Below are positions 35,365 to 39,993 of a stretch of DNA of 64,000 nt, in pieces. A program made the position numbers and the translations under genes. The DNA lies in contig JAKAYA010000007.1 of assembly GCA_021826965.1 (NCBI GenBank), positions 1-64,000 on the forward strand, in the 5' to 3' direction. Each line of letters begins with the position of its first letter. Within the stretch, counting starts at the first letter, position 1. A model generated the notes under the pieces. That model did not search any database. It worked only from the letters and a program-made list of their open reading frames with translations, and was not told the origin of the DNA. The DNA is from Nitrospirota bacterium (GTDB lineage: Bacteria; Nitrospirota; Leptospirillia; Leptospirillales; Leptospirillaceae).

Positions 35365-35396
35365 AAAAAACAAAAGACGGGGGAGAATCCCCCGTC
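35365..35396 (-). terminator. intrinsic terminator
   Basis: GACGGGGGA/TCCCCCGTC 9-bp stem (35376-35384 / 35388-35396) followed on minus by TTTTGTTTTTT. Confidence 0.8.
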
Positions 35397-35618
35397 CCTG
35401 TAACCCGGTGGATATTTCACTGGAAGGGCCGGTCGGGCCGGTTTTACTTGCAGAAAAGCAGGGAAGGTGCGCGAAGAAGGCTGGACAACAGAGGAAGGGG
35501 CTCTGGAAGAGTCCACCGGGGAACGAAAGGACAGGCCGGGACCTTCAGCGATGAAGGAGCCCGTCCTGATTATTATCTTTGTTGCACTGGCACGGACCCT
35601 GTCCCGAAGGATCCGTGC
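35365..35618 (-). ncRNA. candidate structured small RNA (or long leader) with own promoter and intrinsic terminator
   Basis: Promoter-like box with -10 TATAAC at 35624-35629. 5' stem GCACGGATCC/GGGTCCGTGC (35590-35618), hairpin 35528-35567, terminator 35376-35396 with T-rich tail. No convincing ORF. Confidence 0.5.
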
Positions 35619-35623
35619 TTTCT

Positions 35624-35658
35624 GTTATACGAAAAGATTCTGGAAAAATGATGGAAAA
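35624..35658 (-). promoter_or_regulatory. putative activated promoter of the candidate ncRNA (shared box copy 1)
   Basis: TTTTCCATCATTTTTCCAGAATCTTTTCGTATAAC on minus; TTTTCCA direct repeat with 11-bp period. Confidence 0.6.
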
Positions 35659-37274: not shown

Positions 37275-37769
37275 TCACATACGATGGCCGGACTCCATCA
37301 TCCCGTGATGCATCATCATCATTTCCCTCCAGAGTTTCTTGACTTCCTCATACTGTTTTGGAGAAAGGATCAGATGCGCTTTTGAAACCATGTCGGCATA
37401 GCTGTGCAGAATAAGTTTCTTGTGTTCGAGAATCTTGTCCATATCCTTTTTGACATCGGAGGTATCGATCTTCCGGTGCATCATGTCGTTCATGATGTCC
37501 AGATGAAGCACCTTGATGTCCGCCTTTTCCATGATGACCGTCTTGCGGAATGACTCCTTGAGTTTCATGAGCCGGGTGACCTGCTCCCGGGATAGTCCCA
37601 GGCGATCCTGGTTCATCAGGTAAAACGGAATCGGTCCGCCATGCATCATCATGTGCATCATCATCCTGTGATGGTCCATATGGGCTTCCGCTCGAGAAAC
37701 TCCGGAAAAAATGATCATTCCGGCCGCCATCATAAAAACAAGGATCCCTCTGAGTCTGCCTTTCAACAT
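37275..37769 (-). CDS. Spy/CpxP-like periplasmic His/Met-rich protein
   Basis: Signal peptide; MDHHRMMMHMMMHGG; helical LGLSREQVTRLMKLKESFRK and LILSPKQYEEVKKLWREMMMMHHGMMESGH. Confidence 0.8.
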   Translation of the reverse strand: MLKGRLRGILVFMMAAGMIIFSGVSRAEAHMDHHRMMMHMMMHGGPIPFYLMNQDRLGLSREQVTRLMKLKESFRKTVIMEKADIKVLHLDIMNDMMHRKIDTSDVKKDMDKILEHKKLILHSYADMVSKAHLILSPKQYEEVKKLWREMMMMHHGMMESGHRM

Positions 37770-37843: not shown

Positions 37844-37878
37844 TTTATCTCCCAGAATTCTTGAAAAATGATGGAAGA
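37844..37878 (-). promoter_or_regulatory. putative activated promoter of the Spy-like gene (shared box copy 2)
   Basis: TCTTCCATCATTTTTCAAGAATTCTGGGAGATAAA on minus; same box and same spacing to -10 as 35624-35658. Confidence 0.6.
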
Positions 37879-37888
37879 GTGTTCGATC

Positions 37889-39313
37889 TCAGACAGGAAG
37901 CTCGATCAGAAGCTCCGTGCCCGTCTGTTCCAGTCCCGCTTCCTTCAGGTTTCGAACAGATAGCGTTCCTCCGTGTACCCGGACGATCGCTGCCATGATG
38001 ACGGATCCCAGACCGAGGGAAATCTCCGAATTCGACAGGGTCCGGTCGATTGAAAATCGTCTCGTCCGGCGTTTCCCGAAGTTTGCGGCTTCATCCGGTT
38101 CGATGCCCGGTCCGTCGTCGAGCACGCGGATCCTGGCCCGATGAAGACCGTCTTCCGCCTTGATTCGTTCGACCGTCACCTCGATCGAAGTCCGGGCATA
38201 CTTTCGGGCGTTCTGCAGGGCATTTCTGAAGAGCCGCTTGAGAAGAATCGGATCCCCGACGACCTTGACCGGTTTCGGATCCGAAACGAGCCTGCTGAAA
38301 ATGGGGTGGTTTCTTTTCGGATCGTTTTCTTCCCGCTGCTGGATTTCCGCCTTGAGAAGCTGGGTGAGGTCGACCTCTTCGGCCGTTTTTCGATATCGGG
38401 GATCCCCCACTTCCGCGATAAAGAACAGGTCGTCGATCATACGCAGAAAATAGTGGCTCTCCGCCTGAATAATCCGGACGAACCGCTCCCTTTCTCCTTC
38501 GGACATCGCTCCTCCATAGGAGAGAAGCGTATCGGCCGAAGCCCGAAGGCTCGTCATCGGGGTACGCAAGTCATGCCCCAGTTCCTGCAACAGTTCCTGC
38601 CTCGCCCGATCGGTCTCTTCGACGCGCGCTACCAGACGTTCGATCGCGTCTGCCATCCGGTTGAAATCCGTCATGAGGCTTCCCGCCTCGTCGAGGCGGG
38701 TAATCGGAAACCTCGCTTTCAGGTCACCCCGTTCGAGACGTCCGAGAACATCCTTCGCCTGCAGGGATTTTTGTCGAAGATAGACGAACGTGATCAACAG
38801 ACCCGCGAAGGCAGAGGCCGCCATCGTTCCAAAAAGGAAAACCGACTGACCGAGTAGCGTTCTCTGAATGGCGCCGGCGTTGGGAATACGTACCATGAGA
38901 AACGTGGGAACGTAAGAATCCAGCCGGATGATCATGTAATCCGGTGTCAGATGAAACGGCCGATAGTGGGCGACAATGCCGTGAACCTTCCGGGGTTTGA
39001 CCAGCGATTTCCACTCCACCGGAAGAGGACCGTAAGGAGAGGTTTCGGCGTAGATCTCCCCGTCCTGCCCCACGATCCAGACGGGCATGATCCCAAGCCC
39101 CAGCTTGATCCTCATCGCTTCGAAAACCTGAAGAGTCGCCTGATAGGGGCCTCCCCGTTCGATCACGCGCGCCATGAACTTCAGAGCCGGGTTCTGGACA
39201 GGGCCTTCCCCGGCCTCGTTCAGGCTCCGGATTCCTGTAATGATCGCGGCACCCAGAACAAAGGAGACAGAAAGACTGATGAGAAGCAGTTGCAGGAAAA
39301 GTTTTCGGTTCAA
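37889..39313 (-). CDS. sensor histidine kinase (HAMP, HisKA, HATPase)
   Basis: Two TM segments; H-box ELGHDLRTPMTSLRASADTLL; RVLDDGPGIEPDE; LGLGSVIMAAIVRVHGG. Confidence 0.93.
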   Translation of the reverse strand: MNRKLFLQLLLISLSVSFVLGAAIITGIRSLNEAGEGPVQNPALKFMARVIERGGPYQATLQVFEAMRIKLGLGIMPVWIVGQDGEIYAETSPYGPLPVEWKSLVKPRKVHGIVAHYRPFHLTPDYMIIRLDSYVPTFLMVRIPNAGAIQRTLLGQSVFLFGTMAASAFAGLLITFVYLRQKSLQAKDVLGRLERGDLKARFPITRLDEAGSLMTDFNRMADAIERLVARVEETDRARQELLQELGHDLRTPMTSLRASADTLLSYGGAMSEGERERFVRIIQAESHYFLRMIDDLFFIAEVGDPRYRKTAEEVDLTQLLKAEIQQREENDPKRNHPIFSRLVSDPKPVKVVGDPILLKRLFRNALQNARKYARTSIEVTVERIKAEDGLHRARIRVLDDGPGIEPDEAANFGKRRTRRFSIDRTLSNSEISLGLGSVIMAAIVRVHGGTLSVRNLKEAGLEQTGTELLIELPV

Positions 39314-39324
39314 GACAGGCCATC

Positions 39325-39993
39325 CTAGGCTTCCAGGCGATAACCGACGCCATAGACCGGCTGGATCTGGATCCGGTTGTCGGCGACTTCCCGAATTTTC
39401 TTTCGCAGATGGGAGAGATGGGAATCGATGGTACGGTCGTACATTTCCGACTGGTCGGACAAAGCGTCGAGGATCTCCTCACGGGTCACCACTTCCCCGC
39501 CTCTCCGGACCAGAATGCTGAAAATCTCAAACTCCTTCCGGCCCAATGAAAGCTCTGCGCCATCGACCCACGCCAGTCTTTCAGACCGGTTGATACGAAT
39601 GTTCCGGTAAGTCACCCAAGTGCTCCGGTTGGCTTTTCTCTCCACCAGCCGGTCCATCCGCGCCGTCAGTTCATCGAGGCCGAAGGGTTTTCGGATGTAG
39701 TCGTCCGCTCCCATGGACAGGGCGCGGACGGCCGAAGGTTCGTCGGTCCTTGCTGTCACCATCAGGATGGGGACGACAAGGTCCTTCTCACGAAGGCGCC
39801 TGCAAAGCTCGAACCCGGTGCCATCAGGAAGCTGGACATCCAGGAGGATCATGTCGTATTTCCCTTCCGACAATCGCTTCCATCCCTTCTCGAGTGAACC
39901 GACCGAATCGATCGAATATCCCCGGTAAGGGAGACTCATCACGAGGGTCTGGGAAATGACCGGATCGTCCTCGACCAGAAGAACATTCTTCAC
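39325..39993 (-). CDS. OmpR/PhoB family response regulator
   Basis: LLVEDDPVISQTL, YDMILLDVQLPDGTG, RKPFGLDELTAR; winged-helix output domain. Confidence 0.95.
   Translation of the reverse strand: MKNVLLVEDDPVISQTLVMSLPYRGYSIDSVGSLEKGWKRLSEGKYDMILLDVQLPDGTGFELCRRLREKDLVVPILMVTARTDEPSAVRALSMGADDYIRKPFGLDELTARMDRLVERKANRSTWVTYRNIRINRSERLAWVDGAELSLGRKEFEIFSILVRRGGEVVTREEILDALSDQSEMYDRTIDSHLSHLRKKIREVADNRIQIQPVYGVGYRLEA

Follow-up and report, generated by a model that had tools for sequence, protein, structure and literature searches.

We identified a candidate small RNA gene in a member of the Leptospirillaceae that is apparently switched on by a two-component stress system which also controls a CpxP/Spy-like gene. 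The window analysed here, a stretch of 64,000 nucleotides from a Nitrospirota genome, contains on its minus strand about 250 nt that, judged from sequence, very likely represent an independent gene for a small RNA. The computational evidence comprises promoter homology in two genera, an activator box that tracks the kinase gene, a covarying 5' hairpin (H1), a terminator, the lack of an ORF signal and a genomic position that changes between genomes. The whole account, which we favor with moderate confidence, is that of an sRNA gene with a PhoB-box-like promoter, driven by a regulator (39325-39993) that it would share with the CpxP/Spy-like gene and giving rise to an RNA that would pair with mRNAs in a Hfq-free manner.

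Results

The RNA locus lies in an intergenic gap of 400 nt between the end of a propeller gene (35701) and the start of a DLH gene (35300). A previous sequence-only reading had proposed an undescribed structured RNA at this place, possibly a trans-acting sRNA, and this proposal gains support from the conserved promoter, the covarying H1, the terminator, the non-coding character and the absence of an Rfam match. The elements it had listed (the -10 TATAAC, a 10-bp stem, the hairpin at 35528-35567 and the terminator stem at 35396-35376) were all recovered at their minus-strand coordinates (Table 1), while the long-range stem P3 and the 22-bp box upstream of the -10 had been overlooked. In H1, GCACGGATCC (35618-35609) pairs with GGGTCCGTGC (35599-35590) over ten pairs, one of them G-U. 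P3 is a 9-bp long-range stem that encloses the stretch from the second hairpin to the terminator. The minus strand from 35365 to 35620 folds at -99.6 kcal/mol, compared with -79.5 +/- 5.0 for dinucleotide shuffles (z -4.05), and none of 200 shuffles was as good. The plus strand of the locus also folds well (z -4.8), as inverted repeats in such number would lead one to expect; the minus strand is favored since promoter, terminator and conservation all point there. The unpaired residues of the RNA are 75% pyrimidine in this genome and 59% and 56% in two genomes of a sister genus, and short accessible C-rich stretches are present in the RNA of all three. The earlier failure to recognise a known RNA class agrees with Rfam 15, in which no family reaches its gathering score at the locus and the best weak match lies on the opposite strand. 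The sister loci, searched against Rfam at E up to 1, gave weak chance-level matches only.

Table 1. Features of the predicted RNA gene and of the neighboring two-component locus (positions in the window)
Feature	Position	Strand	Remarks
Candidate sRNA transcript	35365..35618	-	About 250 nt, start and end predicted; promoter, terminator, fold, no coding signal
Intrinsic terminator	35365..35399	-	Stem 35399-35373, T-rich tail to 35365
P3, 3' arm of long-range closing stem (TCCACCGGG)	35404..35412	-	Predicted fold and shuffles
P3, 5' arm of long-range closing stem (CCCGGTGGA)	35512..35520	-	Predicted fold and shuffles
H2, 16-bp hairpin with internal asymmetry	35528..35567	-	Predicted fold
H1, 5'-terminal hairpin	35590..35618	-	10 bp; 7/7 inner pairs kept in three genomes
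-10 element TATAAC	35624..35629	-	9 nt past the second heptamer of the box
Activator box TTCCATCATTT/TTCCAGAATCT	35635..35656	-	PhoB-box-like 11-bp direct repeat at the place of the -35; same sequence in two genomes of the sister genus
His/Met-rich CpxP/Spy/ZraP-like periplasmic protein gene	37275..37769	-	Pfam Metal_resist below cut-off; orthologue passes
Second activator-box copy	37855..37876	-	Upstream of the CpxP/Spy-like gene
Sensor histidine kinase gene	37889..39313	-	HAMP, HisKA, HATPase
OmpR/PhoB-type response regulator gene, proposed activator	39325..39993	-	Linkage to the boxed gene seen in four genera

The closest matches to the locus in other family genomes are to the promoter stretch ending at the -10, not to the RNA body. 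The consensus of the box is an 11-bp direct repeat, TTCCATCATTT/TTCMAGAATCT, 22 bp in all. Within the window the motif TTCCATCATTTTTCMAGAMTC occurs twice, before the RNA (35656) and before the CpxP/Spy/ZraP-like gene (37876), with a chance expectation of 0.02. Across the 21 family genomes the box was found at 11 sites with at most two mismatches, versus 0 control sites, and at 19 sites with at most three, versus one control site. A -10-like hexamer with an invariant A stands at a fixed distance of 9 nt from the second heptamer (13/13 aligned sites), and the spacing between TATAAC and the box is the same in the three RNA-bearing genomes. The RNA promoter has no consensus -35 hexamer. An 11-bp repeat period is typical of OmpR/PhoB-family binding, and at PhoB-type activator-dependent promoters the regulator takes over -35 recognition. 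The RNA promoter has this layout, with a regulator that would replace -35 recognition. A weight matrix applied to 1.55 Mb, about 70% of this genome, returned only two strong sites, at the RNA (44.3 bits) and at the CpxP/Spy-like gene (42.7 bits), scores that are inflated because both sites are in the training set of the matrix. The informative part of the scan is that a third site comes nowhere near the top two: the next-best sites reach 22.4 and 19.1 bits and the reversed-sequence null reaches 16. The weaker of these (L241 1822, minus strand, on G000:C44), at 19.1 bits still above the null, immediately precedes a transporter-looking ORF, a possible third regulon member. Another genus has a variant of the box, TTCATTCATTTTTCAAGAATA, that is conserved in two of its genomes (L073 1501-1521 and L067 1501-1521); the site is intergenic, roughly 370 nt ahead of an ORF in both, and may belong to a further member of the regulon or to a distinct RNA found in that genus.

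The CpxP/Spy-like gene with the second box lies 2 kb from the RNA, beside the genes for the kinase and the regulator. The order regulator, orthologous kinase, boxed CpxP/Spy-like gene is found here and again in three further genera. Across these four genera the box tracks the kinase, and most CpxP/Spy-like paralogues at other places in these genomes, which are without the kinase, are also without a close box match. Because box and regulator/kinase co-occur, the box is presumably bound by the regulator 39325-39993, a link that is correlational. In NCBIfam this regulator is not a CpxR equivalog and it stays under the PhoB and CreB equivalog cut-offs. A second CpxP/Spy-like paralogue in this genome (G000:C76:57597-58061, 61% identical) has neither a box nor an adjoining kinase.

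In two genomes of the sister genus (G002 and G003) the box and TATAAC recur unchanged, together with a matching 5' hairpin. The H1 promoter unit is followed there by an ORF-less stretch of 335 and 336 nt, respectively, closed by a GC-rich terminator. Windowed identity between the two is 0.5-0.93 over the unit and 0.2-0.47 past the terminator. Conservation of the stems in relatives, which had been put forward as a check on the proposed RNA, was seen for H1: in the three genomes 7/7 inner pairs are kept, two of them with changes on both sides. Slid pairings drop to 10-60% paired and 51/500 shuffles do as well, so that the covariation of H1, drawn from three sequences, is only suggestive. In the sister-genus RNA, 76/76 consensus pairs are kept, seven of them compensatory, and 5/500 shuffles do as well; the consensus structure had been obtained from these very two sequences, a bias in its favor. 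At the place of H2 the sister genus has a longer hairpin with five compensatory pairs. No further members were found in the remaining 18 family genomes; the order contains no genomes outside the Leptospirillaceae, and the RNA is known from three genomes. Weak model matches in other genera (L084 and L090) were judged to be chance matches because the region is collinear over 3 kb and coding-like; by eye we take it to resemble Ffh.

Discussion

The DLH gene lies downstream of the terminator on the same strand, and the sequence-only reading had considered an attenuating leader of this gene as one explanation of the RNA. The sister loci do not bear this out. In one of them (L059) the unit has a P-type ATPase gene on one side and, 163 nt downstream, an ArsR-family gene on the other; in the other (L060) it lies between an M50 peptidase gene and a PEP carboxylase gene and cannot be a leader, because the PEP carboxylase gene is convergent. 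Furthermore, a search of 16 relatives of the propeller gene found none with a DLH gene nearby, and the stretch from the terminator to the DLH gene contains a weak promoter match distinct from that of the RNA. A cis-acting transcription-attenuation leader, whose position upstream of DLH is not conserved, was therefore rejected and is very improbable. Since the neighbors differ in each genome and one is convergent, the unit is likely an independent sRNA gene, and the changed neighbors also make it unlikely that the RNA is the conserved 3' UTR of a single upstream gene. We give hardly any credence to the idea that the locus encodes a small protein. The sister RNAs do contain open GTG/ATG frames, but starts and ends of the frames differ between the species, indels break them, and the longest frame common to the sister RNAs has 4 synonymous versus 31 non-synonymous codon changes and is for this reason judged not to be coding. 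In this genome the earlier statement that there is no ATG ORF holds, and the only minus-strand ORF of at least 60 aa located in the gap is indeed a GTG ORF (35516-35331) that reads through the terminator.

A further explanation is that selection is limited to the promoter and about 30 nt at the start of the transcript, the rest being a fast-diverging, lineage-specific RNA of minor function, or that the two genera use the promoter for different RNAs. From sequence comparison, promoter and H1 are clearly homologous between this genus and the sister genus. The last 100 nt of the RNA align across the genera somewhat above chance (10-34 of 500 shuffles are as good), the middle aligns no better than shuffles, and the total lengths are unlike (254 nt here, 335 nt in the sister genus), as this explanation would predict. 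However, the body is conserved with compensatory changes inside the sister genus, and both genera have a common layout with H1 first, one long hairpin, and a long-range stem that abuts the terminator. Out of 3000 shuffles, a closing stem of such length was seen in 29 for this genome and in 6 and 4 for the two sister genomes, the latter two not being independent in this test. The arms of the stem read CCGGTGG/CCACCGG here and CCGATGG/CCATCGG in the sister genus, a difference that would be compensatory if the arms are homologous. Taken with the common layout, selection confined to the promoter is unlikely. Titration of a protein in place of base pairing, for example as a CsrA sponge or a 6S-like decoy for RNA polymerase, would fit a highly structured RNA in a genome that encodes CsrA (L135 on G000:C6, plus strand from about 1848) and in which Hfq was not found. 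We consider it improbable: GGA counts are ordinary (6, 10 and 7) and ANGGA occurs only one or two times per RNA, which speaks against a sponge of the CsrB/RsmZ type, and 6S RNA (RF00013) has no match at the locus, this genome having a separate 6S RNA above the Rfam cut-off at G000:C34:4929-5108. Matches to 6S-like RNA were found in 16/21 family genomes.

For the preferred reading, an sRNA gene under the control of the two-component system, the following mechanism is proposed. Envelope or metal stress would be sensed by the kinase, leading to phosphorylation of the regulator. The phosphorylated regulator (39325-39993) would bind the direct repeat in the -35 region and recruit RNA polymerase, and it would likewise drive the CpxP/Spy-like gene (37275-37769). 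With one regulator for both promoters, the response to stress would thus include a regulatory RNA alongside a chaperone-like protein. The RNA, with its 5' hairpin, long hairpin, closed pyrimidine-rich domain and terminator, probably acts by base pairing with mRNAs without Hfq, and G-rich ribosome-binding sites would be fitting partners for its accessible C-rich stretches. That the locus is transcribed, that it is this regulator which binds the box, which stress is signalled and that the RNA acts in trans are all predictions here. Hfq was detected in 0/21 family genomes, this one being 89% complete, and the same search was positive in 5/14 control genomes. By the sequence comparisons made, the RNA would be a new RNA family, in bacteria where Hfq was not detected. 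In a genome-wide search of the pyrimidine-rich domain against start regions, duplex energies were no better than for the reversed control; because the reversed domain pairs equally well, no target is claimed.

To our knowledge, little sRNA biology has been worked out beyond Proteobacteria and Firmicutes, and in the open literature (subscription papers were outside the search) we found no sRNA study of Leptospirillum-type bacteria. A candidate sRNA, its putative activator site and a co-regulated gene, in bacteria with no detectable Hfq, make a concrete small regulon, with which one can ask how an RNA arm serves the envelope-stress response of bacteria exposed to acid and metals. In addition, promoter plus hairpin provide a usable signature for a new RNA family.

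Activation of sRNAs by response regulators is known from the RprA, OmrA/B and MicF type, which act together with Hfq and measure about 90-110 nt. The RNA described here resembles them in being a stand-alone sRNA gene with a (predicted) response-regulator box at its promoter, but it is longer, with 250-340 nt, and more structured. At the level of sequence it has what such a gene should have, its own promoter with a box shared by the regulon, a predicted non-coding transcript and an intrinsic terminator. OmpR/PhoB-family regulators occupy direct repeats in head-to-tail fashion, PHO boxes being an example (PMC4415409), and the RNA promoter is like PHO box promoters in having such repeats ahead of the -10 and no consensus -35; however, the repeat core is TTCCA here and CTGTCAT in the PHO box. 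A precedent for an sRNA where Hfq is lacking is RepG of Helicobacter pylori, a trans-acting sRNA that targets a G-repeat in a bacterium without Hfq or ProQ (PMC8322730); the target of RepG is known, whereas our search found none, and homology is not claimed. The nearest working analogy is the CpxP/CpxQ pair of E. coli, where the cpxP transcript supplies the CpxQ sRNA from its 3' UTR (PMC4817254). There, too, one envelope-stress two-component system gives rise to a CpxP-type periplasmic protein and an sRNA. In contrast, the RNA described here has its own promoter 2 kb away with a duplicated box, Hfq was not found and the regulator is not a CpxR equivalog, and no sequence relation is claimed. 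It is conceivable, and we put this forward tentatively, that the two-component system controls essentially two units in bacteria where Hfq was not found, the CpxP/Spy-like protein and a structured sRNA of 250-340 nt whose promoter, H1 and layout persist despite rapid turnover of its body and changes of genomic position, and that this pair would be an independent counterpart of CpxP/CpxQ.
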